Positions 8,983 through 36,800 of a DNA stretch of 64,000 nt are shown here, piece after piece (positions within the stretch are counted from its first letter, which is position 1; the number at the start of each line of letters is the position of its first letter). The stretch is from the NCBI RefSeq assembly GCF_000003815.2, contig NC_049983.1:17819515-17883514 (forward strand), read 5' to 3'. The translations under genes and the position numbers were made by a program. Origin of the DNA: Branchiostoma floridae. Its lineage: Eukaryota; Chordata; Leptocardii; Amphioxiformes; Branchiostomatidae. The notes under the pieces are model-generated. The model was given only the letters and a program-made list of their open reading frames with translations, was not told where the DNA came from and did not search any database.

Positions 8983-11900
8983 TTACAGTGGACAAATGAA
9001 AGAACACAGAAATTCAACTTCTTGTACGATGATGTCACTTGTAGGGTGGATGGCGTCCTTGTGCCACTGTTGTGCGCTTGTCATCTCCCATGCATCCACC
9101 AGTACCACATCCATCCCCTCAAACAGCTCTCTCATGACCTGATCGAATCTGTACGCCAGCCAGTCTCCGCCGTTAACCTCACCACCAATGAACGTGTTGG
9201 CAGACTTGATGACCACCATGGTCCTCGGGCTCCTCTGCTGAAGCCGTTGGATGGCAGCTCGGATGGCCTCCAGCCTCTCCCTGTACAACTCCACCGGGTT
9301 GGCGGTGAGGTGAGACCAGATGGTGAGACCAACCACGTCATCTGGTCCTCCCTTGATTTCATCAATGGCATTTGCGATGTACTTGATGTTGGTGTTTCTG
9401 GTAGGGCCTGTCCGAATGGGAGGTCCATGCGTGCGGTATCTTAATGTTATGTTGTTCACGGGGTCTTCAGCAAACAAGGGGCCAGTCTGATGGGTTGCCT
9501 CTGGAAGCATAGTATCATTAATTTCTAATATCTTAACGAATTGTTCGTACCATTGTCGTATGGTTGAGTCTCCAAAGAAATGTAAGTTTTTGCCCCTCAG
9601 ACATGACCTCCACTCTAATTGGTTGCAGAAGTGTCTGTTGTGGCAGACCAGAGAGTTCCAAACACCTTGTTGATAAAACCCGTTGATCTGTGGAGTCACA
9701 AGCCCTGGTAGGCAACGCTTGCGTTCGGCCAAAATATCCAGTCCTGTATGTTTGAATAAGTCTGAATAAGTGATACTAGTACCATCGGACACAATTACAC
9801 ATGTCTGAAGCTCATATTTTCTACCAAAAATAAATAGATAAGAAAATTTGATGGGGTGGGATTATGACGTAAGCATTATAAGCCATACTGGTTGGTTAAA
9901 CCTGGGAGTTGCCAGACAAATTTGAAGTGGCATTTTACATCATAGTCACATGACATTGACATCATACGCGTGCAAATCTCTAGGCCTTACTCAACCAACC
10001 ACCATGCGAGATTTGACGACACTTGAAAACATCGTACGGTTTACCAAGGCCATTATATAAGGTGCTTGGGTTTACCATTGGCAACGGTGATAGTAGATGG
10101 TGATCCAGATATATCCAGTCTCTGTGTTCTGTAATGTACAAAAATATGCATGATATAACAACTGACAAAATGATCCAGGCCGGCGAGAACACTGCATCAT
10201 TTCATTACCCAAAACTTGCATATACTAGTACACAATTGTATCTCAATTTAAGTCAGAAAAGGGAGAAGAAACATACTCGAAAGTTTATGATTTTCAAGTC
10301 GTAAGTAGTGGTTTGAAGAGTCTATGTATTTCACCACTTCGAATGACTGAAGTCGGAGTGGAGGTAGCCTTCTCCCGCGGAGAGCCTAATACAGTATATC
10401 TTTGAGAGGCTCCGCCCAACCGCCGGAGGTTTCCACGTTCCATGCTGATCAAAGTATTGGCTATATGTAAAAATAACATTTGGGCAAAGTTTAGAAGAGC
10501 CTACCCAACACGGGTGTATTGAATAGACTACGGGCGATGCTCTGCATAGGAAAATGGGAAAGAACAAACCTCCCAACTAGCTTCTCTTCCCCTGGCCTCA
10601 GCACGTTCTTGGCTCCGCCACCAAGAATATAACTATGGTACCCAGGCTCCTCGCAGGAAATGTTAGCGGCCTTCTCACAGTACCACCTCCCACCCGCATG
10701 TGGGTCGGAGTAGTCACAAACTGGCCTGGTGCCGTTGAAGACGACCGGGTCTATGTTACATCTTGTATCTACTGAGACTCTACCGACGAGATATCGCCTT
10801 CGAAACGTGACCTTGTCGAAAGGATGTTCTCTGATTGTTCTTTCTATGACGTCTATAGCCTGGCGCGGAAGGACAAGCTGGACCTTGATCTTGACCTGTC
10901 CCTCCCACAACAGTCGGAAGGTTGCCGTGTAGGTGCCGTTTTGGTGGTCGGTGATGATCCCAACTGCGCCGGACTTGTTCTGAAGTGTTGAGATTGATGC
11001 TCGGAAATAGTCGCCAATGTTTGTGATAATCGCATTGTTTTGTTGATCTTTGGCAGAGAAAACTACGCGTATGGTGTCGCCTACCGAAAAGTCCACATGA
11101 GAGTTTGACTCTAGAGAAAATTGCAGTTGTTTGGCGTAAGCTGTTGCTGTCAATACACTTTTATTCGGTGTTTTGGTAAGAGGAATGGGAGTTGTTGTGG
11201 ATTGATTCGTCGGTTTTGACGAAAGAAACGTTTTGGGGTTGTGAGTTCCGTTCGTGGACGAAACTAATTTTTGCTCATTGTTTTGTGTCAAAGAATATTT
11301 TGTTGATTTTGAAACTTGGTTGAGATGAGAAGATGTTGCCTGTTCATTTCTTATTTTTGGAACAACTTCCTTGATGCTTATCTGGGATGGTTCCTGTAAA
11401 AAAAAAGACACGGTGTTTATCTAAGGTAGAATACTTTTACGGAAGCCAACCATCCAGTAACTGGTCTTTTTCACTGACGTGACTGCAATGTACGATGTAA
11501 TGTTTTCGGCCATGTTGGAACTTGGATGGTTAAACTTGGAGAGGAAACAATGGATTTGAGGTAGAAGAACACAGTTTTCCCGGACTGACTCTGACACGGT
11601 AAATATATAACATTGCGCACTAGTGACATGCTACAAAAGAATATGTTTGAGTTTAAGTTAACATTCCAAAAAATATTTAGAAAAAGTGTCTGGGCATCGC
11701 TCTTTTACGCCCTCTTTGATATCCCACTCTGTGGAGGTCGAATATCAAACTACAGCATGCTCACCCCAGAAAGACAGTTGGGTAGTGAGTAGTTAACCGG
11801 CCTCTCTGGGGTCATTAGCGTATAAAGTTAGCCTCTACCAGGCTTCGTGGTTTGATGGTCTAATTGTCGAAATTGGACAAATAGAGTCACCGTACGCTAG

Positions 11901-13427
11901 GGGAGTCAGCCGGCCGAGAAGGTCCATTTTTCAAACCAGGCTTCGTGGTTTGATGGTCTAATTGTCGAAATTGGACAAATAAAGTCATCGTACGCTAGGG
12001 GAGTCAGCCGGCCGAGAAGGTCCATTTTTCAAACCAGGCTTCGTGGTTTGATGGTCTAATTGTCGAAATTGGACAAATAAAGTCACCGTACGCTAGGGGA
12101 GTCAGCCGGCCGAGAAGGTCCATTTTTCAAACCACACATTAGTCGACTACAAAGACGATGTCGACTGCGCACAGGCGTNNNNNNNNNNNNNNNNNNNNNN
12201 NNNNNNNNNNNNNNNNNNNNNNNNNNNNNNNNNNNNNNNNNNNNNNNNNNNNNNNNNNNNNNNNNNNNNNNNNNNNNNGCCCTACTAGGCCGGCGGACTC
12301 CCCTAGCGTAGTATTTACTCTATTTGACCAATTTCTACAATTAGACCACCAAACCACGAAGCCTGGTAGAGGCTATATTAAAGTTGGGGGGGGGGGGGGT
12401 GCTGTAGGTCGATTCGCGAGAATACGGCAAGAAGGAAAATACGCCGCGAAAGGAAAAATGCCGGGAAAGGAATACTCGTACATGTAACGTTATCTGCCAG
12501 GAAGCTTGTACTCGCTCCCGGCAGGAGTCATTTTTACTTTCGCGGCATATTTTACTTCCCGGCGTATTCTCAGTTAAAAATTGCGACTCGAGCGCAACTT
12601 TGATACGCCAATGCCCCCAGAGAGGCAGGTAAAGGAGGCTAGGTAATCAGGCTCATTTTTACACGAACTGGAAACCTTCACAATCCAATCTCAAACATTG
12701 ATTCCTTTACTACGCAGCACACGTTATAACGTTACCTGGCTGCCTCTCAAATCTTTCTGTCAGCCTTGAACAATTGTATCCGTATTACTTTTATCAATAA
12801 TTAACGCTAAGTCAATTACTCGCGTCATAAATAAGGTTTATTTTTTAAACCCGGGCCGCGTCGAGCATAAATACTGCGCCCTGCTACTTTGTTGGTGTAA
12901 TGGTAACCTCCACGATTGTTGAAATGGCACCCACGGTTCCCATGGTAAACAACCATCCGTTGACTGGTCTTTGCACTCACGTGACCATGACGTATTGTCA
13001 TCCATGATGGGTGGTTAAATCCGGAAGTCGCAAGGTGTGTTGTGTAAAGACGAAATGAACACATTACAGGACTGACTCTTGCAGGTTGTAGTAACCAGCA
13101 TGGCACCATGAAGCGGTGTGAAGTACAAATATCTCAAGTCATGGATGTTATGTCATGCGATGCGCGAACGGTCTCCATGACTTCCCCGAACCGAAATTAC
13201 CGGACATTTACGGAGTTTACCGAAGAAAACCGAAATGGACCGAACCGGGTTCGTCGATCCGTAGTCCCGCAAACAATCTCTCAAGGCAACCAGTAGGTCA
13301 TCATAATATAGATTCGTATACGCACCTGTACAGAATACAGCAGCAAGTATCCAAGCGCCGCTGCCGAGACCACGACTAGGAAGAAGCATCTTACACTCCC
13401 AGTCGATACCTTCTGTGTTTTCGCCAT
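8983..13427 (-). CDS. NXPE family member (neurexophilin and PC-esterase domain protein)
   Basis: Three coding exons on the - strand: 13427-13326, 11393-10570 and 9820-8983, giving 587 residues; phases match at both introns (0 and 2). Exon 1 encodes a short basic cytoplasmic tail and one hydrophobic segment (about residues 14-31), a type II signal anchor typical of Golgi enzymes. Exon 2 holds a Ser/Thr/Asn-rich stem, then a neurexophilin-like domain (about 120-300) with CNIDPVVFNGTRPVCDYSD and RWYC..NISC. Exon 3 is the PC-esterase (GDSL-like) part: HFFGDSTIRQW (Ser394) and HKDAIHP near the end (Asp564, His567), the expected catalytic residues. Length matches the family (about 550 residues). 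Vertebrate NXPE1 has been reported as a sialic-acid O-acetyltransferase; the substrate here is unknown. Intron 1 carries many foldback repeats and an assembly gap. Confidence 0.88.
11447..11592. repeat. Dispersed repeat, copy 1 (CAACCATCC..GGATGGTTAAA)
   Basis: Shares CAACCATCC, GACTGGTCTTT, CACTGACGTGAC, GGATGGTTAAAC and GGACTGACTCT in order with 12939-13085. The ends form a short inverted repeat (CAACCATCC / GGATGGTT). Lies just upstream of NXPE exon 2, in intron 1. Confidence 0.6.
11828..12374. repeat. Foldback element with three 98-bp tandem units and an inverted fourth copy across a gap
   Basis: Three direct units of 98 bp begin at 11840, 11938 and 12036 (each starts AGGCTTCGTGGTTTGATGG and is over 95% alike). 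After the N gap, 12279-12373 is the reverse complement of the same unit. The outer ends are inverted: left AGCCTCTACCAGGCTTCG, right CGAAGCCTGGTAGAGGCT. The whole is a foldback (inverted-repeat) element, and the gap lies in its loop, as expected for a structure that is hard to assemble. Confidence 0.8.
12179..12278. other. Assembly gap (100 N)
   Basis: 100 N placeholder inside the foldback element in NXPE intron 1. Sequence and true length between the arms are unknown. Confidence 0.95.
12417..12577. mobile_element. Hairpin MITE-like element with about 65-bp arms
   Basis: Left arm (12417-12483: GAGAATACGGCAAG.., TACGCCGCGAAAGG, ATGCCGGGAA) and right arm (12504-12577: CTTTCGCGGCATATTTTAC, CCCGGCGTATTCTC) are imperfect reverse complements with a short AT-rich loop. 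CpG-rich compared with its surroundings. No open frame. Confidence 0.65.
12939..13085. repeat. Dispersed repeat, copy 2 (CAACCATCC..GGTGGTTAAA)
   Basis: Same order of motifs as 11447-11592: CAACCATCC, TGACTGGTCTTT, CACTCACGTGACC, GGTGGTTAAAT, GGACTGACTCT. A weaker relative may lie at about 9880-9930 (GGTTGGTTAAACC). Confidence 0.6.
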
Positions 13428-17940: not shown

Positions 17941-20900
17941 GACTTTAGCGATTTTCTTGGCTTTTTCCGGCGACTTGCTGTCAAGACGACCTGCCGGCTG
18001 CCCAGGGTCGTCTGTTTATTATGGTTGTACAGTTTTGGTGAACATTACAGTAACAAATAGAGTATTTCTGGGAAGTGTGTGACACCGATCAGGTTGACAA
18101 ATATCTTAGATAGCAATGTATCCATTTTAGAGGGAAATATTGTAGAAAATATGTTGATTTGTGCAACAGTTGAACCTCCGTCACGTCCCTGGAACGAGGT
18201 GACCTCTCGGTCACTTCCAGAAACCGGGTGTCACTTTCGCCTTGAACTTTTGTGGAGATGTTTCTAGATGTGTTCCAGCTGTTGTGTATCGTTTTTTATG
18301 TGTCAAGAAAGAGAAGAAAACAACGATTTATTTATTTGCAGGTGGCTTTTTCAGTGTTACGAAATGATATTACAATTTATGACGTATTCTAGATCTAGAT
18401 CTCACCTGGTTGAGGACACACCCACCAATGACGTGTATTTTAATACATAAACGATCTCGAATGGTGACATTTTTCACACACCCGTTTATTTGTTCTCTGT
18501 AAACCATGCTAGCCTAGCAATTACATCTCAACTCCTTGTTGATATTTTGGTTTTAAGAATGCTAGTTGCTGCTAGCTTTGCTGGCCCTTTCTTTTGCTTG
18601 ACTTCCTTGTTGCAAAGTGCCTACTCATGATTGGGCTGGTGCCAGGCACTGCTGAGCAGTATGCAGGAAGTGTAGCTAATGCTTCTAAGAAACCAACAAT
18701 GAGGGTATTTGTGTTTCTTTGGAACTGTGATTCCCGAACACTGGTCTGAATAATGTAATTTCTAGACGTCATTTGAATCTCCAAGGAGATGTCGGCAGGC
18801 AAAATTTGTAAAGTTATTCCTAACTGAAGAGTCTTCTGTAACAAAAAATGGGGATTTTGAGATTTTGCCTTCTGACATCAGCTTGGACTTGAGGAGATAC
18901 ATCGAGAGGTAGTTGGATGTGGTAGGATATAAAAACCCATCAAGAATATAGAATAATGACTAGTACTAGTAGTAGTCAGGATTTTTACTGGTTCACTTGC
19001 CTCCACGCTCGTACCCAGCGCCGTGAAGAAGCCATAGGTTTGAGATCGTGGGCTTATTCACAATCCACCTCAAGCTGAATTGAATAAACTCTATGGAATT
19101 CACAGCTGTCGTTTTGTTTTGTTTTGTGTTTGTCTCAAAGCCTTAGAAAATCGTAAGTTGTGAGCGCACGCCACTACGTGCGTTTCTACAGCCTGAGTAT
19201 TTTTACAGTTACCGGGTCCAAAACTGGTCGCAAGTTTACTATTTAGGGCACCACAATAGTGGCACGTTATAACAAAGGGAGTTTTAGAATGTACCTGATT
19301 TGGTGGCGCTGTAAGGGCGTTAAGATTATCCCTCTACATTGCCGAGAGGGAGTTATGTCACGGAAGGGAGTTTTGCACGGCGGCGCGTTTGGCCTTCTCC
19401 GCCAGATCACGTTCCCGGGACACTTAGCTCCTCTCAGCATGATTCGCCCCAGGAATGCGTTCTCTGTCCCAGGACTGTCTTTGAGAAGAATCCCAGATGC
19501 CAGTGGCCACCATGCGGCCGTATAATGTATTGCAAAAAGACTCACACGCATATTCAGTGGAATAACACGATTTAATAGGACGCTGTGGAGGAGCGTGACT
19601 TGCCTCAGAGCCGGTAAAAACCCTGACCACTACTATCTCCACAACCCAACCTCCGCTTGGAGAATAACTAGTCCCCACTGTCAAAGCTTTTGTCGAGAAA
19701 GTTGAAAATGTTCCTATGTCAGATAATACAAAAACATGTTCACAAGAATGATTGACTCTACATACACCTGCTGACAAAATTAGCATATGAACATGAATAG
19801 TTTATTTAATTAGATTACTGGGTTGTCCAATCAGGGCTTTAACTAGTGATTTCACATAAGTGAGTGATGGCTAAGGGAATCTTTGGACTGTTCTGGTCTC
19901 ATACCTGAGTTAGACTGTACCATTGGATTATGTGTGTACATACTCTTTTACTAAAAAGTTTTAGAGTAATGCAGGGATGAGACCGTCTTGGGCAATTTGC
20001 TAAGGACAGCCAATGGGGTGATCGAGATGTGAAATCTCTGTGAGAACGAAGGGATGTGTGTACAAGACTATCATTGACACGTAAGGTGTCTCCTAGGCTC
20101 ATCTGAAGTTACAGGTAGCCTTGTTGACCAACTGATAAAGACTTACAACATGCCTCTGTGGTCACCGGTTTGGTAAGATATGTTCAATTTGTCTTCAACC
20201 TGGCATTTTTTTTAATGTGGACACATGGTGATGGTTGTTTATATATCCGGGGTATGTCACATTTAACATTTACATTTCATTTGCAGTCAAAACTTCAAAA
20301 GAATACCACTCAGGGTACTGATAAAATCTGGTCTATGTGGACAGGTAGTCAATGTAGAAAGGATTGTAAATGCTTGTGCCAATGGAAAAATGGTAACATT
20401 GGCTAGGTCGTCCCTATGTAGAGGTTGTCACCTGTACTGGTGTGACTGTTGCCTCTGGGCATTGGTTACTTGATGTTCAACTTCAAGCCAACCAGCTGTT
20501 CAAATGACTGCTTTTCCCCAGCTCCCCACTGGACAGGTTTAACTGTGTTTTGTGATTTCTTTCTGAGAAATCCAGTCCGTCTGACGAAATGTTTATTCTC
20601 AATCTGCATAATATACTGTATCACAGTCTATTAAAGGAATGCTTGTCCATCTGTTCAGTTAATAAGTGTGTGAAATCAGGTGTGTTTTGATGATAAGGAT
20701 GTTTGCATAGAAGGGGGACCTTTGAGATCTGTGGGAACATCTTGCGAAATACCCACTGGGGCACTTGCGCAGTGCAGCCACATTTTGCTTGGCGCAACTT
20801 ACTTTTAAACTCTGTTTGTGCACTGTGCAGATTTTGGGCCTCAGATCTCAATTTTGCGGTAAATTGACTTGGGCAAAGAAGAAATAATGAGCAGAGGCAG

Positions 20901-23900
20901 GTGACACACTTGATGTAGAGTTGAAACAAATGCTCTCCTTACAAAGAACCATCGCATCGCTACTAGGCCCTACATTATCTCCTGCCCTGGCTCTAGAGGT
21001 TGATAGGCTATTTATAGCTTTTTACACAACAGGTTCTCATTACATCACCTGCTTGGACCTGAGCAGCAGTGCCTCCTAGAAAGGTTGGGATGAATTGCAG
21101 GCCTTTATCACAGTATCTGTGTTAGTCTGCTGTGTTGTTAGTTAGGGAAAACTACACAGCCCTGATAAGGTGTGTTTGAAAGTGAATCACATATCTTTTC
21201 ATTGACTTGTGAGAGTAATTTATTTCCAGCAACATTTAACTGAATTTGGTCTCCTTGTATCAGTCTTTCTGTGTTGGTCCTCCAACTCTCTAGAACAACA
21301 TTGAAATGTTTGACGTATCTGTATCTATATAGACGGTATAACTGTCCTTTGGCATAACACACCATCTTCACACTCATGCAGCACGTGGTTTACATTCTTC
21401 TGATTAGAGACCTTGGCCTTGATAGAGAACTCAGTGGCGCACACATATGGAATTTCTCTGAGCAAATAGACCTTGGGCTCAGTAAAGGTAGCAAGATACA
21501 TTATGATAACTGGCACTGTGGCACAACCATTGACAAACATCCTTTACAAATTTACCATAAAGAGCCTGTCAGTACCATATGATAACACTTACATATCAGT
21601 GACGTGGGCCTCTGACGTCCAGCTAGGACCATTATCCAACATGTCATTATATGACCAGTAGAATAGCCAGCCTATGTACAAGGGCTTCTTTTCAGAATAA
21701 TGGCCCTACCATGTCTAAGGTAAGATGTCATTTTCTTAAAGATAAATGCCTGATGTTCACTCGTAACTTAGGGAACCAGTCAAATTGTAGTTTGTAATTG
21801 GCTCTTTGATTGGAGCAGTTTCCTTTAAGATTCAAGTTCTGCTCCATTCAGATTCAGAATATGTTGTATTTTATGCAGCTTGGGTTTTTGTAGCACAGCT
21901 AACACAAGTAAAATGGTTTTTCAAAGTACTGTTGGAATTGGACATTTTACATTTGTAATGTTGCATAATGTACATGTGTATTCCACAACGAATCAAGCTT
22001 GTTGAATCAGTCCAGATTTACGAAAAAAAGAATCTGAAAAGAAGTCAAATATCTATGTTTTGTTGTTTTTAATCACATCAATAATGCTGCTATTGTTTCA
22101 CTTCTTTCTTATTATAAATCTGCTGTAAATATCATTTGTCAAGTATGTTTTGAAGCACCAAGAACATGGATTTTGTCATGGATGTTGGTGATAAACTGTT
22201 GAAATCCACTGTTCGGATGATTATATTTTATGATGCTACTATTTAGATTTTGCATGATATTTTGCTTCAGCTTTGTAGGTTATATAATGTATTATTATCC
22301 TACGTGTTTATTGATGTATCATATGTTGTTGCAATCCCATAATTTAAAAAAAAAATCATGTTGACTGCAGGTTAGACTGCAGGCCCCTTTGGTGGTGGCA
22401 AAAACTGATTCTTGACAGAAAGGTTGTAACACAGAACCGGGCCACTAACATGAGACCTCAGCCTGATGATCTCAATGATATCTACACATTTGTATAGTGC
22501 AGGGTTTAGCAGGGTCCAACTCAGGGAGCCTGCTGTAGAATTTGCTTGGGGACATGTTGGCCCTTGAGCCAAGGAATTGTGCTGTATGGGCCCTGGAAAT
22601 AGTCTGGCATCCAGGCTAAGAATCCACAGATTTATGCTACCACAACTAAATGCACAGCACCAAGCCTGGATTTTCAGGCTGCAAATTTGCAAGTTGTTAA
22701 ATCCAATTGTGTACCTGACACCTGCAATCCTCAATTGTAGATTTCAGGTTTCAGAGGTTGCATTATGATTTTTTGTTTGTCTTGAAAAAATAGTAGGCAA
22801 CATGACACTGAGTAAGAAAAGGATTGAAATCCAAGATCGTTATGGCTCCTTTCATCTTGGTGAACTACTGACATGGCCCTGGGGTGTCTGCCTGAGGTAT
22901 TTGTAACTCCCATATGTAGATGTGCTGCTGGTCACGTAGACTTCTAGTCTTTGCCTGCTGTTTTGCTGTCCTGAATTGGAATGAGCACAGCAAAGTAAAT
23001 GCCTGATCATTTTTCCACTCCAAAGGAAGGCTTCTGAGGTTTGTACCAAAGCGTTCTAATCTTCTTATGCATCATAAGGCATTCAAAAGTCTTGATTTGA
23101 ATGGAAAGTTGCTTAGTAATGCCATTAGTGTATTCAAGTGTTCAAGGTGTTTTCTCTGGGCCTTACAAATTTGGCCTAAGTACATGCCATGGAGTTACAA
23201 GGACCTTTCTGAATGTTACCCTGGAGTAACAGAGAACTATCCAGTTACGTATGTTTTTTTTGTACTAAAATTATTAGATCACATTGTCTTTCGATGATAT
23301 ACTTCTGTGATCTTGTATTATCTAAAATTCTAAATCAGTCTCATTGATTCTGATAAAAAAATTCAGTGAGAATGATTATTGGGGCTCCAGGGGTTATCAT
23401 CCGTATAATCAAGTATTAATGTGGATCATCAGCTGCAAAAACAGCAGAACAAGAAGTAGTGCCTCCACTCTTGAGGGCTATGGTGCGAGACATATTTGTT
23501 TAGTAACAGAGTCTCTATGTGCTGCCCTATGCTTGAGGGCGCCTTCAAGACGCTTACTTGAAACTCCTTCTAAAAGTGGCAAGACGTTCTCACATTTCAG
23601 TGGCCAAGGGTGCGTCTTAGTAGAAAGGCAGCATAGCTCATGAGGATTTTTGTGGTGGACTGAATCTCGGTTCTATATGATGTAAGTCTTGTCTTTTCTA
23701 CATGCCCCTGTCTGTAACTTTCATAATCTAGAATCTTATGTTACTTACATTGTAGGTTGTTTCCTACCGGTGTGTCTCAAGAAATCATTTACACCTGCTT
23801 GAAACTGCTTGTTTATGAGTTTCTAAAATTTTGGATAGAAACTTAGGTAATCGGTATATATTTTGCGAAAAGTAACAGTAAAACACTTATTTCTTAAGTT
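17941..23900. other. Intergenic, no gene seen
   Basis: Only short open frames with no family resemblance or splice chain. Small items: (TTTTG)n near 19106-19130, an AATAAA at 19083-19088, a duplicated AGGGAGTTTT at 19278 and 19365. The GC-richer block 19310-19520 has overlapping frames on both strands but no recognisable protein. Confidence 0.35.
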
Positions 23901-23916
23901 GTCAGTCATTTTATGC

Positions 23917-24120
23917 CAAAAAGCAGTAAGAAACTGGTCTTTTATATCCTAACCATGAATGAGGACAATTTGAGTTAGGATGTAAAAGACCAGTTTCTTC
24001 CAGATCACTTTAGTGTCACTGATGAAAACTAGTGGATGCTAGTTGAAATGTCTGACCGTTTCCAAAATCATATCAAGTTGCTTGAGTAACTGCTTTTTGG
24101 CATATCTTATTACCTGGATG
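23917..24120. mobile_element. Foldback element containing the fullest copy of the dispersed repeat
   Basis: The ends are a perfect 16-bp inverted repeat: TATGCCAAAAAGCAGT (23917-23932) and ACTGCTTTTTGGCATA (24088-24103). Inside, a second hairpin pairs AAGAAACTGGTCTTTTATAT with GTAAAAGACCAGTTTCTT (about 23932-23998), followed by TAGTGTCACTGATGAAAACT, TGTCTGACCGTTTCCAAAAT and TTGCTTGAGTAACTG. Related copies are at 6985, 50320, 56975 and 58450. Confidence 0.7.
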
Positions 24121-24869
24121 TCTCATCTTCCGTCGGCGTGTCAGTCATTTTGTTTGGTTGTTATATTGTAAGCAAGCGCAGCATCAAGATAATATTTCAA
24201 TCTTCTTCCTTTTATCCAGTCCAGTAAGCCCTTTCTGATGTGATGTGTTATTGTACAAGTTCTATAACTGTAAAATAGCCTTAATTCTCCTTAATCAATG
24301 TTTTCAAGATGCAGCTTCCTTCTTTTATATTGCTGGTTCTAAAAAAGAAAATATGATTGAAGTACTAGTGCCTAAGGTGTTTTAGGCACTGTTCACATTT
24401 GCAACATTCAAATCGAATTTTCTACCGTCTATTATGAAAAGGATTTTCATTTATTGCATTGCCAGCCTCTTGGCAATCTCTTTGAACACAGTTTCCTTTC
24501 ATACAATTATTGGTCCAAGGAAGGAATAGGACCTTAACATGTATATACATAGTAAAATCAACTGTTACTTAAGCTACATAAGGATAGATCTACCTGTACT
24601 AGTACTCAAGAGAAGATGTTCAATTTAACCTCCAATCTGCTGACTCAGAGTCAGAGGTAACCTTTTGTACTGGTTATTGGGTTAGGCTGTAAGGAGTTAA
24701 GGTCTGCAACACAATATTGTGTGAAAAATCTAATTTGACAATGGATGTTCTTTAATGTCCAATGGGTGACAGGAAATACATTGAGAACTAAAATGCATTT
24801 AAGGATTTTGCCGTCATCATATTTTGCTCCTATGTCGTTTACGATAGAGTTTAAGTAAGGTCAGTGCTC

Positions 24870-25260
24870 TTAATTTCTGCATATATAGTAAATATAGATA
24901 TATTATAAAGACATAAAAATCAGCCGTGCATGCGCCAACCCCTTGCAGAGCCTCTTATGGTAGTGACCATAGCGAATCAGCTCGCAGCAAACAATGTGAC
25001 GGTGAATTGGGTTATGGACAGAAACCATGTTGCCGTGGTAACACATCAAGGAGGAAAGCGATTGGGTGGGATGATCCACGGTGGTACCGTGTCGTGACAA
25101 CCTTCCATTTCAGACGAGCTAGCCGTGCCTTAACGTTCTGCCTCTGCGCCGTGCCGTCATCTTAACGTCGTAATTGTCTCGTAGAAGGAGGTGGGACGTT
25201 AACACGATGGTGTTCTCTCTGTTTGTCCGCAGTCGAGGCTTCATCCTGCGGACCTGCACC
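24870..25260 (+). promoter_or_regulatory. Candidate ALAS promoter / 5' UTR
   Basis: Directly upstream of the ALAS start. It holds a TATA-like GCATATATAGTAAAT near 24877, a GTGCATGCGCCA at 24926-24937 resembling half an NRF-1 site, and inverted CCAAT boxes (ATTGG) at about 25006 and 25061. NRF-1 control is established for vertebrate ALAS1. A pyrimidine-rich tract ending in CAG at 25230-25232 could be a 3' splice site, making 25233 the start of the first coding exon and placing the true promoter farther upstream. No iron-responsive-element hairpin was found. Confidence 0.35.
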
Positions 25261-28200
25261 ATGGCCGGGATCACAGCGCTCCGCTGCCCCTTCCTGACGC
25301 GCCTCCCCATCAGCTTCGTGCGGCGGGCGGGAGCCTCCCTCGTGCCGTACGCGGAGAAGTGCCCCATCATGGGCGACGTGATGGCTCGACACATTTCATC
25401 CATGAGTTCCGGAGGTAAGTCATCAGATGATCTGTTACTAAGTGACCTTTCTTTGAAACTGAAAGACTTTTCTTCGCTCACATTTGCCCTGGGCTGTTTC
25501 CAGCTTTGAATTTTTTTCCATACCACTCATTGTTTTTAACCCATGTTGTTAAGTTTCGTTGCTGAATTTGGTATTTGATAAGCTTACAAAAATACATTTT
25601 CATCAATTTTGTGTTAAGATTTTGTGGACAGACAGAGAAATTTTTGCCCGTCCCAAGAAGCCAATCTCTTTCCTGGGATTGAGGGATGGGTCCTGGAGAC
25701 AGCCCTGGGTTTTACCAAACAAGCATGCCAAACATGGGAAAAAAAGTTCTGTTTCTCTGGCTGTGTTCTTCACTTCATGGTTACTGTAATCTGTATGATG
25801 TTTATTTTTCTGTGTTTCTGTGTTCAGAAGATACGGATGAAACGCTAGTTTGTCCCGTCACACGTATGTTCTTGAATCTTCTCTGCATCATATTAACAAC
25901 AACTGAATAAGCACACACAAAGTCCTTAATCACATTAAATTATCCGGGCCAAATTCACTATTCTTTGGTACAATGTGTCTCTAAGTGTGTTCAATTATAC
26001 ATGTATGAGGTTCATAACTGATTTTTCACTCTTCACTTGTACAGCATACGTGTATAACAGTTACTATAAGGTCAGGTTACCTTGTTATAGCCATGATTTC
26101 TGACAGTGTACAGTAAGTGGCTCAGCACGGCAGCTTGCCGGATAAATGACGTTCAAGCTGACATTTACAGAGAGAAACACAGAAAGGCGGCTAGTTTCTG
26201 TAAGCCAAAGGCAAACTCAAGTTGCACAACACATTCTGCTAAAAGTCCTGGTAAATTTCTGTCACTTCGTTTTACCAGGAATATTTTTTGGAAAGTCATT
26301 TTTCTGCTTGTAATTTAGTCTCTTAGCACAGATTAGAATTTCATGTATGTTGAAGATAAATGTCATAATTTGTTGAGAAGGACATTCTTACTGAAGGATA
26401 CATGTGGTATCATATTGTTTGTATGTAGCCCCTAATCCAGTCATCTGCAGCTTCCATCCTCTTGAACCAAATTGCTCTGCTCAGCTGTTAATGACATGGA
26501 GAGACTGCTTGATGAGCTAACAAAAGCAAGACAAGGCTAGACTCCAGGCTATTTATTTTATAATTGCCAAAAGAAGTGTACACTACTGCATTCTGAGCAT
26601 ATCAAAGTCTAGAATTCATTATGAGCATATCAAAGTGTAGAATTCCGCCAGTCTTCCAGTTAATTAGCCTTGCTTTTCTGGGACAGATATGTTTCATGGC
26701 TCATTCTCATTGGCCTGGAAAAATTCATCCTGATCTGTTCTTTGTAATGTATGATTTCTAATGCTGATGCTGTTTTATTTCAGCTTGTCAAATTCCAGAT
26801 GTTTGTATTAAAAACAAGGATTTCAATTCAAACAGGAAAAAAGAACAAAAAAAATGTCTAATGAACAGGTGTCCACTCTTTGAAATTGTTCATGATGATC
26901 TAAAACTTCACACTGAAAAAAAAATTACATCATTTGATGAAATACAGTGATAAAACTGCTACATCTCCAGAATCCCAAGCATGAATTAATGAAAGTATAT
27001 CATGATCATTAGTTTTTTTCCAGTAAAAAGTAAACAATCAGAAGTACTGTATTTTTGTTCTGGTTTGGGTAGTAGAAGATGACTACCAACAGTAAGGTCA
27101 CGAGAAGGCCCCCAAAAGCTGATGAACATTAACTGACCTCAGTCTGCTCGTGTTGTTACGCTGGTCACCATGACACGCGCTACGCATTATGTCGCTCTAG
27201 TTTCTCTCCCCAAACGGTGACCTTTAAGTCGGTACTGAAGTCTGCAGGTTTACGCTAATGGGTTTACAGCGGGGGGCTTACCGTCTGGCGTCCTTTCTGT
27301 AACTCTGTTTCAATCCGATAATGCTGGTGTTGTGCGTTCAAGCTCTGTGTTGTGCAGACCCAGACAGTAACATGAGATACCTGCAAAGGTAAAACCCTGC
27401 TACTAATGGTTGTGACATTTGGATGGATTTCTCACAAGGAGTTCTGTAAATTTGTACTACTTATGTCGAAGTGACTGCTAGGTGTACCAGTTTGTCAATG
27501 ATATTTCTACGAAGTTCTTGCTATGTATACTAGCGATATAGGTTTTTTCATTCAAATGTCATTTTAAGTGGTTACCACTTACCACATTAAGTTCTTCAGG
27601 CTTTTCCTTGGGAATGGCTTAACAGTTTGCCCCCTCCCCCACATGCCTGTAGGGCATTTTCTTATGATGACTTTGCTGTGCTTGCCGCCATGTTGGTGTC
27701 CCTATTTGCATTTCAGTGAATCATGCGGTACATGATTCACTAATTAAAAACATTTACAGCATTTACAGATGTTTAAAGATCCTCTTTTTTAAATGTCTGT
27801 ATCTCAAAGGAGAGAGTACCAGAAGATTCGCTGATAGAACAAAAAAAAATGCTTTATATAAGTGTTAATTTTTCTTCCGTTTTTGTTGACAGGCGCTGAG
27901 AGCGATGGAGGTCCCAGCAAGTGTCCCTTCCTGGCAGGCACCAAGTGCATCAGGGAGGTTAACCCTGCCACCACCGAGGATATCCACACCAAGGAGCAAG
28001 GTCAGCATCAGAATCTTTCAACATTTCAATGCTTTTGCTTCATGACTACAAGAACTTTGCAACAGACCTGCCTTAGCTTACATATGCGCGCTATGTGGCA
28101 GAGACTGCCATTCTCGTATAGGACTGTTTAGTCATAGTCATAGCTGTAGGGCTGATATGTATTGCATCCCCAAGAAACTACCTTATAACGCACTAAGCTT

Positions 28201-31200
28201 GTAAAATGTAATGAAAAGTACAAGCTGCCTACAAATGCGGATCTATTTGATGTGGAGGTTTTTTTAGAGTTGTAAGATTTTTCTGACTCCTTTTTCTAGA
28301 CGGCCCGAATTCTGATGCAGCCCTGAAGATGGCTGACCTCTCTGTGGCCAATCAGCCGCAAGGAGACGGCATACCTGGTACGTCAGTGCTAACCTTTTCT
28401 TATCAAAAGTTAACTTTAGAAACCTAACTGTAATATTGGAGCTTTGCTTGAATTTATTGAAACGGAAGCTTACCAACCTTACCCCAGCAGGAAGCATGAA
28501 ATGCCATACCATGTTACGCTGTTAGTTTGACATTTCATGTTACACGTATAGCACATCACTTAAGAGTGACCTTTCCATGCCTAACAGGAAAGCAAATTCA
28601 AAATAGAATGAAATATAGAAGGAATGTATATATGATAAAATTATGTTATTATGATTAGTGAAGAAGAATTATATATTAAGAAAATAGTACTATATTCCTT
28701 TGCCTGGCTTGCTCAGGGACTGTCATTTTGCCACAGCTGGAAGAATTCCCACAAAGACAACCATTAATCCTCTTACCCCTGAAAATTATCTCCGGCAGTA
28801 GATAATGGGGCTATGCATGGGGGTTAACAGACCACAGGAGGCTAGGGAATTTTCCAAGGTGGCACAAGAACATTTGGATGAATCAGTTTGAATGTTACAA
28901 TCCATATTATCTAAAGATGATAGATTTGTGTGAGTGCTTGGTTGAAATTTATCAGGAAGCAAAAGAATGAATGCTCTGTCAATGACATTGTGTCCTCCCT
29001 AACAGTTTGCTTCAGAAGTTGAAACAACATTGCGTGGGGAAAATCTCTGTAGAATTCAGAAAGAAGATTATAGTTTTCCCATAGGCACTAAAACTGTGAG
29101 TCAGCAAAGTGGTTAATGGTGTTAAGGAACCCTTTTCTGTGCTAAGCACTACATTAAGAGATTTGAAGCAGATTGACTTTTCTGTCATTAGGTGAAAAAT
29201 GGTCTGACCTAAAACATGTTTGTATGATTCTATGAATGAGGAAAGATGCAGCTTGAGAAAAGCAAGGGTTCCTAAAAACAAAAGTTACTTCATGCCATCA
29301 TCTTTTTGATGTTTTTACTGTTGAATATTTTGTACCTTGCTTAGTATTTTGTGAATTGCTAACCTTGTGAGTCACTTTCAATAAGAAAGTGTGTCTGTCG
29401 GAGTAAGTCCATCTTTTGATTCAAGTGATATTTGAACTATTTATGATATTATTTTCATAGTTCTGATTTCTTGATAGGAAGAATAGATTTAATATGCCAG
29501 AAATCTTGTATACCAAATACTACCGATGCTATTGTGTAACCGTTAATCCTGACCTTCTAATAGCCGGCTTACTGTATAACCATACCAAATTTGGAGAACA
29601 AATGGCAACCTTAGCGGACTGAAGATTAATGGCCTACATGTATGTGTAATTTCAGAGAAATGCCCGTTCTCTGGTGAGGTCATCCGTCAGATGGCTGCGT
29701 CTGCTTCCCCGCTGCCTGCGACTGTTCCCACGGCAACGGATGTGCTGCCACCTGCGGCCGACAAGAATGTGGAGAAAGCGACGGCCAAGAAAGTTGACAC
29801 GCCGAGGGGACCCCTGAAAGGTTTGACATCTCGTTTTTCAGACATGAATTAGCTGGTGATCATTTTGGTATACGGTGCTCAAAATCCTTTTTTCACCCAG
29901 GTTGCCCAGGCGGCATCGGAGTCAAAAGTCAACATTTCAGGTTGCCCCACTTCCAAGTTATGACTTTCTTCAAATCAGCTACTTATCAATTATCTTTTCT
30001 TTCAGTTACATGTAACTCCGTAATAATATGTTTTTCCTTATCAAGGAATGAATACAAAAGCTTATGCACATAAGTGGGGGAAATGCGGTGTTCAAACTGC
30101 AAAATTTCAGGTTGCGCCAAGCAAAAGCTAGTTGTGTTTGTAACTGTGCTAGTGGGTATTTCGAGCTCTGGGTATACAAAGACCCATTTGTGTACTGCAA
30201 TGATGTCATTCTTGTTCACCCAATACCTTGAAAATTTTACATTAACTAAAAGATTTGTGCAGTTTTTGCCTAAGGTGCAGTGGCCTTGTAAAACATGATA
30301 AAGAAGATGATGCCATCTATTTTTATTCTCATAATTGCATCTCTTTTTGTGACTCAGAAATAATGCTCTTACTGTAACTTCCTGCTTCTAATGAGTAGTT
30401 CCACACTCAACAACCTTTAGTCTTTAACAATTGTGTTTTGTTCCCTTCTGTGATGAAGAAAGCTCATTCAGGGATCTTTTGCATCAAATTGGTGCTGTAA
30501 GTGCCTTTAGTTAATCAGGATAGAGAGACGGGCTAGGGGATAGGTGGACAGAAGACAGAACAAGACATTTCTTGCTTTTGAGTTTTCAGTGAAGAGCTTA
30601 CTACCATAAACCACACAAAACATTAAACTAACTGAAAAATTTCAACATTAACAGTAAATACAATTAACATTTCAGCTTTGTTAATTTTTGTACCATATAT
30701 GTATACATGGATGTACATTTGTATGTGGTCACAATATCAGCATCTTAGCTGCCTATTGCCCACATTGTATTGTCACTGTTGAAATTCAAATAAAGTCACA
30801 GTCATACAATAAACCTTACAACCCTGTCTCATTGTTTCCTTCAGGCGATGGAACATTCAACTACGACAAGTTCCTGAAGGGGGAGATTGAGAAGAAGAAG
30901 AAGGACCACACCTACCGTGTGTTCAAGCGCGTGAACCGGCGTGCCCCGTTCCCGTTTGCCGAGAACTACAGCGAGGGGAGTCATCCTGGGGAAGACGTGT
31001 CCGTGTGGTGCAGTAACGACTATCTGGGCATGAGCAGGCACCCAAAAGTGGTGGAGACCATCGTGTAAGTACACAATGTAATACTAATAGTTACTGTTTT
31101 TTACGTGTATGGTCTCTAACCTTTAGCTTACCAGAGTAACCGTTTGGCGTGAGTAAACCGTGACGGGCATAGGCAGCAGGGAGAAGTTTAACCTAGGATT

Positions 31201-34200
31201 GATCTTCTTCCAATATGTTCCCCAGAATTCAAGTTACAAGTCTTGTCATCTAAACAAAGAAAGCCTGTTATATATCTTATAACTATATTAGTCCAGTAAA
31301 ATTAACTTGCTTTCTTTTCAGAAAGTCCTAATGAGTCTTATAAGTTTATATACACAATTTTACATACATTGAACAGTGATGTTTGTACGTTTCCAGTGAC
31401 ACTGTGAACAGGCGCGGTGCGGGGGCGGGTGGGACCAGGAACATCTCGGGAAACAGCATGTACCATGTGGAGCTGGAGAACAAAATGAGAAATTTGACCA
31501 GTAATGTTGTACCTTTCCAGTGACACTGTGAACAGGCGCGGTGCGGGGGCGGGTGGGACCAGGAACATATCTGGAAACAGCATGTACCATGTGGAGCTGG
31601 AGAACGAAATGAGAAATTTGACCAGTCATGTTGTACCTTTCCAGTGACACGGTAAACAGGCGTGGTGCGGGTGCGGGCGGGACCAGGAACATCTCTGGAA
31701 ACAGCATGTACCATGTGGAGCTGGAGAACAAAATGAGAAATTTGACCAGTCATGTTGTACCTTTCCAGTGACACGGTAAACAGGCGTGGTGCGGGTGCCG
31801 GTGGGACCAGGAACATCTCTGGAAACAGCATGTACCACGTGGAGCTGGAGAACGAGCTGGCGGACCTGCACCAGAAGGAGGCTGCGCTTCTCTTCACCTC
31901 GTGCTACGTCGCTAACGACTCCACCCTCTTCACCCTGGCCAGGGCTTTACCTGGTGAGGACGAACATACTGGAAATGCAGGAATGTTTGTGGTGGTTTTA
32001 TGTTTGCAGTTTTTGAAAGGTAGTCTTACCGCGAACTTTAAACAACCGCGAACATTTTTCCATTACAGTATGTGACTACACTGTATGGCACTGCCACAAT
32101 TTTAAAACCACCTTGAACACTCCACTTTCCTGCTAACACGAAATTAAATTCCAGTGAATTGAAATGCATTAATTTTACAGTATTAAAGAATAAACCCTGA
32201 ATCAGGCTGAAATATTTACAGTTTTTGCAAAATTCTTGTTTGATTCATTATTTTGAATTTCTTGCTGATGCTGTCAAATGTATTTTTCTCCAATGGCCCT
32301 CATAAGGCAACAGACATGCATGTTACTTGAAGTTGAAAATTGAAGACAGGAAATTAGATAGCATATTCTTGGAGCTTTGACCTGACTTCCAGTCAGTTAC
32401 CCCAGAAATCTGCCTGTAGAGGACAATTTTGACCTGAAATTTGACCTCCACTTCTACACTCCTTAGGAAGCGCATTTTGTCTTTGAATACATAACAGAAG
32501 CCTGGATGAAATACATGTAGCTGTGGTTTACATGTGCACTTTATTTACATTCATCTTATTTCCAGGATGCGAGATCTACTCGGATGCGGGTAACCATGCC
32601 TCCATGATCCAAGGTATAAAAAACAGCGGCCAGCCCAAGTTCATCTTCAAGCACAACGACCCCATTCACCTGGAGGAGTTGCTGAAAAAGTCAGACCCTG
32701 CCACGCCCAAGATTGTTGCCTTCGAGACTGTGCATTCCATGGATGGTAAGCAGTACTTTTGATTTATGTTGTTTTGTTGTTGATAACACGGGACACTTAA
32801 AGTTGAATGCCATCTGTAGAATTACTAGAAAATGAATGCAATGTTGAAATTGTCATGACCCAAAGTTATTGAAAAATGGGTCAGCACCTCGAATAGCTTG
32901 CACTGCCAGTCAAGTAAGAAACATTTTTCACAGCAACTTTGGAGTGTCTAGTTTGTCACCTACATGTATGCATTCTTTGCTGTTTGGCCCAATCTTTGTT
33001 GTCTGAATGTTGAAGTAATACATGTGTTGTTATCTGTTTTGTAGGAGCTGTGTGCCCGCTGAACGAGCTGTGCGACGTGGCACACAAGTACGGTGCCATC
33101 ACCTTCATCGACGAGGTCCATGCCGTGGGGTTGTACGGAACCCGTGGGGGCGGTATAGGGGATCGCGATGGCCTCCTGCCCAAGATGGACATCATATCTG
33201 GGACCCTTGGTAGGCAGTCATCTGAAATTTCACAAATCTTATTGCATCAAAGCTCTAGAATCAATATATTGACACTTCAAAGGCTTTCAATTTAGCCTTG
33301 CCAGCTTGGTTAGGTGTGATGGGTCGTTCAGTGTAATATAACCAGCTGCTGCTGCGCCGCATGCCTGCGAAGCTAGTGTGTTACGCAGAAGGGCGGTTAT
33401 AGGGACTACATACATGTAGATACAGATAAGTCCTCCTATCATCCTATCTAAAATAATCACTGCTTGAAAAGTAACATTCACATGTCTCTGTTTTTCTGCA
33501 GGTAAGGCATTTGGCCTTATAGGAGGGTACATAGCGGGTTCGTCCCTCCTGGTGGACATGATACGAAGCTACGCTGCCGGCTTCATCTTCACCACGGCCC
33601 TACCCCCCATGGTGCTGGCCGGAGCACTGGCTTCCGTCAGGGTACGTAGGAACATGCAACATAAGATTTTGTGTGATGTTTGTGCGGCATTGACATTGTC
33701 TGAAAATAACTTTTTCCATATATTTTATTAACTAGCTCAATATTCTAGAAATCTGATGCTTTCTAGCAAGGCTTTTCCCCCTGACAAAGTGAAGAAAATC
33801 TGACCAAATATGCTTGAATGCATGCTATGGATATTTGTTGTACATATTTATTATTTGGATAGAGATTGCTATTGGGCAGCAACAGTGATTCTATGGTAGA
33901 GATCATAACTGGAATCTTTGGTTGGGATCTCTACTGGGAGAACTGTCATCTGTACTGCTAGTTGTGCTTGTAGACCCCCTGATAGTAATACGTGGCAGAG
34001 GCTCTGATCACGATCGTATAATTGCCAATTCTGCCACTATATCATACGAATGAGCATTTTAGCTAAAAGAAAATGCAATAGAATGAATGTGTGAATAACA
34101 TTGACCACAGATTCTGAAGAGCGAGGAAGGAGTGCAGCTGCGCCGCGGACACCAGCGTGCGGTGAAACTGATGCGGACCATGCTGATGGATGCTGGGCTG

Positions 34201-35569
34201 CCTGTGGTCCACTGCCCCTCCCACATCATTCCTGTCAAGGTGAGTTCTACATGCACAACTCAAGCTTACAATGAAAGCAATCACTGTTGATGCCAGTGTT
34301 CTAGGCAGCCTGAAATATTTTTCCAGGATTTTGAATGGAAATCCTGTCGAAGGCATGACAATTTTAGGAAGGCCCGTTGTGAAATCTAGACCCTTTGAAA
34401 TGCTATTTCTTTATTTTGAGGGGCTAATTTTACTGGTAGACTCAGCTTGGTTCAATTAATATCTTTACATGCCGATTTTTGTCAGTCACAGTGGATGGAG
34501 TGGGCAAAATTTTTGCCCATATCCAGCATCAAAATTCTGTCAAATGACGGAAGGACGGACACTGGCTAGAACCCTGGTTGATGCCTTGCTGGGTTAAGTG
34601 GATAGCAATCTTACTGCTTGAATACAATGAAAGATATTCCAAATCGTGATCACAGAGTTGTGAGCTCACATGTGCACGCAATGTGAAGGATTGCAGAATT
34701 GAAAAAATAACGATGTATGTTAACGATGTACACTAATGATGTACTCTGATACTGCACTCCCTGTACTCTGATACTGCACTCCCTAATGATGTACCTTAAT
34801 GATGTACGCTGACAATGTATCCTAACGATATGCCCTAATGATATGCCCTAATGGTATGCCTTAATGATGTATTGACGCAAAAAAAATCTTTGTGTTCGGC
34901 ACCGGTTGCTATTGTATTTTTTTGTCCTTGCTGTCAGGTTGGTGATGCAGCGAAGAACACGGATGTGTGCAATGACATGATGACCAAGCATAAGATCTAT
35001 GTGCAAGCGATCAACTACCCCACGGTGCCGCGTGGTGAGGAGATGCTCCGCATCGCCCCATCCCCCCACCACACCCCCGAGATGATGAAGTACTTTGTGG
35101 ATGCCTTGGCCAAGGTTGCTGGTCTTTACTGTTTTAAGTGTAAAAGGCAAATTTTGTTTTCCCAATAAGCAAATTTCCATCCTTGGATGGGTCCAGGAGA
35201 CAGCCTCGTTGAAATGTCTCTTTCTTTACCAGTTATGTTTCGTTAGCTTAAGATGGAATTGTATTTTCACATGATTTCAACAGTTTGCTCTTATTTTTAA
35301 ATAAGCGAGTAGTTAGGTTATCATTTTCATTTTTAGATCATGAATCATGTAATGTTGTAAAAAAGTGTTGTCAATATACATGTGTACAAAGAAAATGTTT
35401 TATTTCCTCCCAGGAGTGGAAGGAGCACGACCTGGCCTTCGAGAAGCACTCGGACGTGGAGTGTCACTTCTGCAAGATGCCCATCCACTTCGAGATCATG
35501 TCCGCTCGCGAGAAGGAGTACTTCGCCGACTTCGCCCAGAGCAACAACCGCGTGACGGCACAGGCCTAG
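25261..35569 (+). CDS. ALAS1: 5-aminolevulinate synthase, mitochondrial
   Basis: Twelve coding exons: 25261-25414, 27893-28000, 28300-28377, 29656-29820, 30845-31064, 31769-31953, 32566-32745, 33045-33209, 33502-33641, 34111-34239, 34938-35114, 35414-35569; 1,857 nt, 618 residues (vertebrate ALAS1 about 640). It condenses glycine and succinyl-CoA to 5-aminolevulinate, the first step of heme synthesis, in the mitochondrial matrix, with pyridoxal phosphate. The N-terminus is a basic presequence with Cys-Pro heme motifs at residues 9, 34, 62 and 116. The core shows [46 protein letters not shown] and SGTLGKAFG with the PLP lysine (about Lys420), and ends in TAQA. ATG 25261 has a CACCATGG context and sits at the family's usual distance from the first Cys-Pro. 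An in-frame upstream ATG (25207) is less likely. Exon 6 is preceded by three truncated copies. The symbol is by similarity; the animal may have a single ALAS. Confidence 0.96.
31382..31768 (+). repeat. Three tandem truncated copies of the ALAS exon 6 acceptor and 5' half
   Basis: Copies begin at 31397, 31521 and 31645, and the full exon at 31769, a spacing of exactly 124 bp. Each repeats a TTTCCAG acceptor and about 88 coding bases ([20 protein letters not shown].. up to ELEN), then about 36 bases (AAAATGAGAAATTTGACCAG..) leading to the next acceptor. None of the three has a donor. Reading through any of them meets the TGA that begins the next copy. Copies 1 and 2 resemble each other (GACACTGTGAACAGGCGC), as do copies 3 and 4 (GACACGGTAAACAGGCGT). 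Confidence 0.9.
34705..34875. repeat. Minisatellite of about 13-bp units in ALAS intron 10
   Basis: Runs of the loose unit (C)CCTAATGAT(G/A)T(A/G)C, with variants such as TTAACGATGTA and CCTAATGATATGC, plus a 22-bp block (TGTACTCTGATACTGCACTC..) repeated twice at about 34740-34785. Ends about 60 bp before the exon 11 acceptor. Confidence 0.75.
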
Positions 35570-35753
35570 CGCCACAGCTCGCCATTTTCAGATTGTCTCA
35601 CTCGATCGGCTTGCCCACGGCTATTCTGTCCTTTCGAATTAACTCACTACCTTCTTTCAACATATCAGAAACTTCATGCTATTTCTTCTTGTGGACCTTC
35701 TTGTGGAATTTGATAGTTGTGGAAGGTGTTATTATGACTATGAGAATCCTCGT

Positions 35754-35759
35754 AATAAA
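35754..35759 (+). terminator. Polyadenylation signal AATAAA (ALAS, proximal)
   Basis: First canonical signal after the ALAS stop, 185 bases downstream, followed by TATATATATATTGT. A second AATAAA at 35851-35856 could serve as the distal site. Confidence 0.55.
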
Positions 35760-35859
35760 GCTATATATATATATTGTAGATATAATTTTAGTAATTGTTT
35801 TTAATCGCTTCAGCCTGATGCAGGATAAATAATTATCTAGGTGCAATGAAAATAAAGGA

Positions 35860-36800
35860 TTCAGTTTAGCTGATGGCTTGGTGATTTTGGGAAAAAGCTC
35901 AGTAGCTTGTCAGTGATAATCATGTCATTATTTACTCATCAATTATGGAAAAATAGATTCAAGTCATTTGTGACATCTTTGTCTTGCACACAATTTGCAT
36001 ATGCCTGGTGTATTACAGTTAGTGATCTGAATCAGTAGGCATGTAAGATGTAATGAAGGGTGACTGTACTATTGGCTGAAAATGAATATTTTATTATGAT
36101 ATTGAAAGTAATCTTGTAGTTTTTCCTCAGCTTTCTATCCTTTACCTTGGGCAAGTAAGACCATAATGTGACGGGAAAAATCATGTTCCCAGTTTCGAGA
36201 GTGGAACTAATCTAGAAAACGGCGATGGTGATACAGTAACTGCTTCTTCTGCATTCAAATTCGTTTCCTGACAGTAAAAAATAATGAAATGCCATTTAGA
36301 TTTTGCAACAAAATTTCCCACAGTACCCCCCTAATTTCAAAATAGATGAACCCTTTAACTTAGTTTGCTCCTTTTGGATAGATTCACTTCTGGTAAGAAT
36401 GGATTTCTGCTAATGTAATGCCCCCTTTGAATCACCTGAGGATCTCATGGCCTCACCAAGGATATCATGGCCTCACCTCTGTTTACCAATCACAAGATCC
36501 GGGCATTATCAAATGTCATCATTCCCTTCCTGCACCGTGTCTCGAATTAGAACAAAACACTCCTAGTTGGCAAATATTTGCGATTTCAGGTTACCTTGAA
36601 TCGTGTGTGCCTTAACCCAATAACCCAACACTAGCCGTGTAGAATGATGCAATGTTGCAGGAAACATGTTTGAATGCAGAAGCGATAGCTGCACCTGTCA
36701 GTATAAATCTGAGGGGCCTGTAGGCAGAATGAAGGGGCTTCACAAGATTTTACCATCATTGTACATAAATTTTACCAACATTGAAGTAAAACTGAAGTAA
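35860..36800. other. Intergenic, no gene seen
   Basis: AT-rich sequence downstream of ALAS without a supportable gene. A small duplication (ATCATGGCCTCACC) occurs at about 36447-36480. Confidence 0.35.

Follow-up and report, generated by a model that had tools for sequence, protein, structure and literature searches.

Why does the gene for 5-aminolevulinate synthase (ALAS), a rate-limiting and tightly regulated enzyme, carry the beginning of one of its catalytic exons, the one for the glycine-rich loop, four times in Branchiostoma floridae, each time preceded by a splice acceptor, and what would this mean for its message? The locus lies within the window, i.e., the whole stretch of 64,000 nucleotides analysed here (C5:17819515-17883514 of a 513.4-Mb assembly consisting of 431 contigs), and positions below are counted from its first letter. 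In our judgement it is highly probable that the array represents a lancelet "mirage", in which a tandem duplication resembling a minisatellite spans an intron-exon boundary, and that it is mostly inert.

From its sequence, the host gene looks intact and appears to be single-copy in the assembly. When exons 5-12 (numbering of the present analysis) are joined through the fourth copy of the array, they encode 449 residues without an internal stop. The best match of the joined protein among solved structures is human erythroid ALAS (ALAS2; E 7.5e-212, query residues 3-438), and the score against TIGR01821 (5-aminolevulinate synthase) amounts to 621.2 bits, the cut-off being 338.55. Exon 5 (30845..31064), which is assigned from its open frame, its splice sites and the alignment to human ALAS2, ends in ATC GT and is followed by the donor GTAAGT at 31065. 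Downstream of the array, boundaries inferred from frame and homology place exon 7 at 32566-32745, exon 8 at 33045-33209, exon 9 at 33502-33641, exon 10 at 34111-34239, exon 11 at 34938-35114, and exon 12, with the stop codon TAG, at 35414-35569, all exons lying on the + strand. The inferred donor of exon 11, AAGGTTGCT at 35115, is unusually weak on a rough matrix and the true site may differ. Upstream of the catalytic exons, a short open frame at 27916-27948 (+) encodes a peptide which we take to resemble a heme regulatory CP motif; it is a candidate only and its status as an exon is putative. A search of the assembly with the ALAS protein, in which 18 of the 18 best candidates were scored, gives 16 matches, 11 of which correspond to the gene itself (8 to exons and 3 to array copies) and five to relatives that are only 35-44% identical. 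There is no second ALAS among these 16 protein matches, and a second ALAS or a retrocopy as source of the exon variants is rejected on the same grounds. A 572-bp query covering the array finds one place in the assembly.

A single tandem array is recognized by TRF at 31369..31853 (+), with a 124-bp period, 3.9 copies, 95% matches, 0% indels and a score of 835. Each of its acceptors, ending at 31396, 31520, 31644, and 31768, joins an intron end to an exon start, and the first exon bases at 31397, 31521, 31645, and 31769 follow each other in exact steps of 124 nt, the shared exon part comprising about 85-88 nt. On the + strand, the array begins with acceptor 1 and its own left flank (31369..31396), delimited by alignment to the internal intron tails, with which it agrees in 24 of 28 aligned positions, the remainder being 3 mismatches and 1 gap. 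Then follow copy 1 of the 5' half of the exon (31397..31484), which is truncated and lacks a good donor, and an internal intron tail with a branch-point-like TTGAC and acceptor 2 (31485..31520), which can be delimited from the exon part only approximately. Copy 2 (31521..31608), the internal intron tail with acceptor 3 (31609..31644), copy 3 (31645..31732), and the internal intron tail with acceptor 4 (31733..31768) come next, and the array leads into functional exon 6 (31769..31953), which has a length of 185 nt, ends in ALPG and is followed by the donor GTGAGG at 31954. All four copies read the same 28 residues. In copies 1-3 the peptide ends in (K/E)MRNLTS(N/H)VVPFQ and meets a TGA at 31521, 31645 or 31769, respectively, which in each case consists of the first three bases of the following copy, so that the start of copy 2 stops the frame of acceptor 1, that of copy 3 the frame of acceptor 2, and that of the functional exon the frame of acceptor 3. 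The frame hits TGA at the start of the next copy because the unit comprises 124 nt (124 = 1 + 3x41). Thus, what had been claimed in a sequence-only reading of this DNA holds for the four exon starts at exact 124-bp spacing, for the last base of exon 5 at 31064, for the last copy as the only full exon with a donor, and for the three good acceptors that must be skipped, each being followed by a TGA. Two of its phrases need qualification. The acceptors, called near-perfect, are locally identical in the case of acceptors 3 and 4, whereas acceptor 1 is close but not identical, and the path from acceptors 1-3 "straight" to an in-frame TGA does end at the start of the next copy, but only after 41 whole codons.

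How, then, might splicing find the right acceptor? Acceptors 3 and 4 share the same 38 nt upstream of the junction and the same first 30 nt of the exon, and with sequences identical over these 68 nt around the junction, a choice between the two cannot rest on the site itself. Counting pyrimidines in 17 nt gives 11, 11, 12, and 12 for acceptors 1-4 and no clear ranking. Masking of acceptors by local RNA structure was considered and rejected, since the predicted mean unpaired probability from -20 to +3 is 0.316, 0.376, 0.336, and 0.343 for acceptors 1-4, so that there is no contrast in accessibility and acceptor 4 is not favoured. No known RNA element is found in the whole window at Rfam gathering scores; a permissive Rfam search of 20000-36500 yields three matches, all to microRNA families, far below gathering scores and located at 23922-24005. 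Exon length does distinguish the sites, as an exon reaching the donor at 31954 would have 185 nt from acceptor 4, and 309, 433, and 557 nt from the other acceptors. Exon definition is well established, and, argued from exon lengths only, it would favour acceptor 4, which alone gives a short exon of normal length. The spliceosome would then pair acceptor 4 with the donor at 31954, and the upstream units would be removed as intron. Splicing to copy 4 is assumed here, and copies 1-3 are most likely skipped. Any leak to acceptors 1-3 would lead to a premature stop, and the array should be mostly harmless because such transcripts should be cleared by nonsense-mediated decay. Having two acceptors that are identical over 68 nt, the array offers a natural test of how the spliceosome chooses among equal acceptors.

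The same features can be read as a switch, in which a regulated share of transcripts, e.g., depending on heme, is spliced to acceptors 1-3, meets TGA and is destroyed, thereby setting ALAS output. Such poison acceptors would suit a gene under tight regulation with a rate-limiting product. Over 68 nt, acceptor 3 is the same as acceptor 4, and every upstream choice leads to a stop (at 31521, 31645 or 31769) that lies 185-433 nt before the donor and would be expected to trigger decay. Known poison exons resemble the ALAS array in that the choice of another acceptor would bring in a premature stop. However, they are usually complete cassette exons with a donor of their own and are often conserved, whereas ALAS copies 1-3 are without a good donor. 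Passages of the lancelet globin study point in both directions. On the one hand, many repeats of this kind contain splice signals and could serve as cryptic splice sites (PMC3087553). On the other hand, Adh3 data and RT-PCR of globins suggest that regular splicing is undisturbed (PMC3087553), and, as far as excerpts of the two relevant papers go, the arrays of Adh3, globins, and troponin C (TnC) are reported without disturbance of splicing or aberrant mRNA, while for PGBD5 this is only suggested (PMC3087553, PMC3902484). Also, haplotypes differ in the copy number of such arrays according to the same passages (PMC3087553), which makes these arrays a poor basis for a set point, and arrays of long period are frequent in the genome (see below). 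We therefore regard a poison-acceptor switch as very improbable. A related proposal turns the variable copy number into the active principle: each extra acceptor would act as a brake that diverts transcripts to nonsense-mediated decay, and the length of the array would vary ALAS output between individuals. We give this equally little credence; if it were true, unequal crossing-over would become a dial for the output of the enzyme that limits the rate of heme synthesis. The array can be explained without a regulatory role.

The differences between copies allow a view on how the mirage at ALAS might have formed. Nine columns vary within the 28 shared codons, and 9 of 9 are third positions and 9 of 9 are synonymous (hypergeometric P 1.9e-5 by position, and P 2e-6 from a synonymous fraction of 0.234, both under the assumption of independent changes). 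Columns 6, 9, 18, and 27 separate copies 1+2 from copies 3+4, and the remaining ones are private, i.e., column 51 to copy 1, column 48 to copy 2, column 33 to copy 3, and columns 30 and 69 to copy 4. In the 84 codon bases, copies 1 and 2 differ at two positions, copies 3 and 4 at three, and copies 2 and 3 at six. The differences would most likely have arisen in working alleles and have been combined by unequal exchange. A misaligned exchange between two diverged working alleles could have placed a second copy of the intron end behind an exon start, and four units would then have resulted from additional unequal crossing-over. An origin of the units in such an exchange would account for the all-synonymous differences, for the split into 1+2 and 3+4, and for the deviating flank of copy 1. 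That the shared codons diverge only by synonymous changes suggests that the units preserve a record of old alleles exchanging sequence. Some details fit less smoothly. The inner copies, 2 and 3, do not form the pair with the greatest similarity. Copies differ from each other at as many as 7 of 28 third positions, a number that seems large for alleles. Among copies 1-3, variation at third positions (7/28) exceeds that in the noncoding tail (2/39; Fisher P 0.028), which requires that the tail be constrained or homogenised. Intron 5 was also considered as a source of the remaining internal tail and is rejected, as outside the last 24 nt its comparison with the rest of the internal tail scores 16, which does not go beyond shuffled sequences (mean 14.4, maximum 23).

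An identical reading of 28 residues in four copies, with 9 of 9 differences synonymous, is also what would be expected if copies 1-3 were under present coding selection, some full-length ALAS mRNA including their exon halves. Three differences occur in a single one of copies 1-3 each, and none of the three changes an amino acid (P 0.013-0.017); small as these numbers are, the private changes appear more orderly than free decay would give. However, the same pattern results if working alleles were under constraint before there was an array, and deviations of such small numbers do not seem to require selection on the extra copies. Inclusion of copies 1-3 also meets mechanical obstacles, since reading through gives TGA, there is no AGGT in 31369-31853 that would permit splicing in register, and the copies are without a strong donor. 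Donors that would turn copies 1-3 into exons score no higher than 2.2 on a rough matrix based on general knowledge and are rejected; on this same rough matrix, the seven inferred donors of the gene range from -2.7 to 8.4, and two of the seven fall below 2.2. Present coding selection on copies 1-3 is thus extremely unlikely.

Before a mirage is accepted, it has to be considered whether the array exists in the animal at all. Reads of two haplotypes could have been mis-joined in an animal that has one copy, and several circumstances make this a legitimate concern. B. floridae is described as highly heterozygous in passages of PMC3087553, its reference as not haplotype-resolved in excerpts of PMC12373286, and repeat numbers of the PGBD5 arrays differ between assembly versions according to parts of PMC3902484. 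The window itself contains two runs of 100 N, at 1121-1220 and 12179-12278. Against an artefact, the four copies stand at an exact 124-bp step and carry private differences in each, whereas two single-copy haplotypes would supply two versions and not four. For PGBD5, moreover, original and new reads agreed (excerpts of PMC3902484), and this assembly contains a globin array that agrees with the published one in unit length and copy pattern. An assembly artefact is thus very unlikely. The sequence-only reading had likewise preferred stepwise duplication over a simple assembly error, and both parts of this view are supported, the former by the split between copies 1+2 and 3+4 at the four columns given above, and the latter by the differences proper to each copy and by the documentation of this class for globins and PGBD5.

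This globin array served as a control. A globin-family search gives at least nine matches, and among the nine loci analysed with TRF one (L038) has an array of period >=30, the other eight having none of such a period. The array of L038, with a period of 158 and 4.2 copies, lies across the start of the matched exon; exon starts at 1036, 1190, 1348, and 1506 (steps of 154, 158, and 158) amount to three extra acceptor/exon starts. From the exon start onwards, copies 2 and 3 have the same sequence throughout the 158-nt unit, and the outermost copy is diverged and frameshifted and shows amino acid changes. Likened by unit length and copy pattern, it is very probably the published BflGb6 case, and it points indirectly to a lancelet as the host. 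Before the frameshift of the outermost copy, 7 of 10 variable columns are third positions, a lean similar to that at ALAS but weaker.

The frequency of such arrays was estimated from 20 stretches of 10 kb at fixed places (200 kb). They contain 18 arrays of period >=60, counted regardless of overlap with exons, in 10 of the 20 stretches. These arrays cover 11,492 of 200,000 bases or 5.7% (bootstrap 2.5-9.8%), a share that falls to 4.3% when the locus with the longest array is left out. With long-period arrays so common in the genome, an intron-exon boundary inside an array is unsurprising, unless selection strongly removes such cases. A sampled piece of the genome shows a 117-bp unit with about 28 repeats and 99% matches (L021:4766-8015). 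Elsewhere in the window, a 98-bp unit occurs in three copies with 98% matches at 11837-12134, shortly before the N run at 12179-12278, and a reverse-complement stretch of this unit beyond the gap suggests an inverted mobile or palindromic repeat. It was considered as a second mirage and rejected because of its position beside the N gap, the reverse-complement stretch beyond it, and the lack of a clear exon in view. Other observations in the window concern two open frames on the - strand (8983-9861 and 10491-11420) that match the C-terminal domain of NXPE4 (PF24536) and neurexophilin (PF06312) and probably belong to one NXPE-family gene, and a leucine-rich-repeat open frame at 62677-63600 (+) near the window edge (LRR_8, E 9.5e-29).

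The ALAS array is very probably a further case of a known lancelet feature. Repeat units over intron-exon boundaries are described in passages of PMC3087553 for Adh3 (10-72 bp), BflGb6 (150-160 bp), and BflGb9 (157 bp), where such structures are termed mirages; Adh and TnC are cited as further cases in parts of PMC3902484. At ALAS, four units in 124-bp steps each contain an intron-exon boundary, the unit length falls inside the overall range of the reported cases, and one authentic boundary keeps the gene intact, the frame being open via copy 4. Among the literature matches listed in full-text searches, ALAS was not found to be named as a mirage, and it would thus extend the short list of lancelet mirages by an essential enzyme gene that is apparently single-copy. 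The array might also serve to test whether lancelets tolerate the duplication of splice sites unusually well.

In PGBD5, tandem repeats of 60 and 108 bp extend over splice sites, the larger unit being close to the 124 bp of ALAS. Unlike at ALAS, its repeats partly abut 5' splice sites, and they are treated as coding in one predicted exon model (both according to excerpts of PMC3902484). Outside the lancelets, the origin of human introns in tandem arrays (Zhuo et al., 2007) and internal gene duplications that create introns (Gao and Lynch, 2009), as cited in passages of PMC3087553, resemble ALAS in that tandem duplication multiplies the splice sites of a gene. These studies claim intron creation or alternative splicing, whereas no such claim is made for ALAS. 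The closest match is BflGb6. Globin mirages have been documented by RT-PCR and by comparison of haplotypes, and their turnover by unequal exchange is described as leaving inner units alike and edge units deviating, as in haplotype 2 of BflGb6, where two of three repeats are alike and the edge one deviates (passages of PMC3087553). Alike inner units are not clear at ALAS, where the flank of copy 1 deviates, the exon parts pair as 1+2 and 3+4, and 6 of 84 positions separate copies 2 and 3. Also, the outermost globin copy is frameshifted, whereas at ALAS the peptide is the same in all copies and indels are absent. Unit identity of BflGb6 is given as 81-100% in the same passages (PMC3087553), compared with 95% matches at ALAS. 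In both genes, however, the 3' end of an intron and the 5' part of an exon are repeated in tandem, the unit is of the order of 100-160 bp, and the authentic unit adjoins the rest of the exon.
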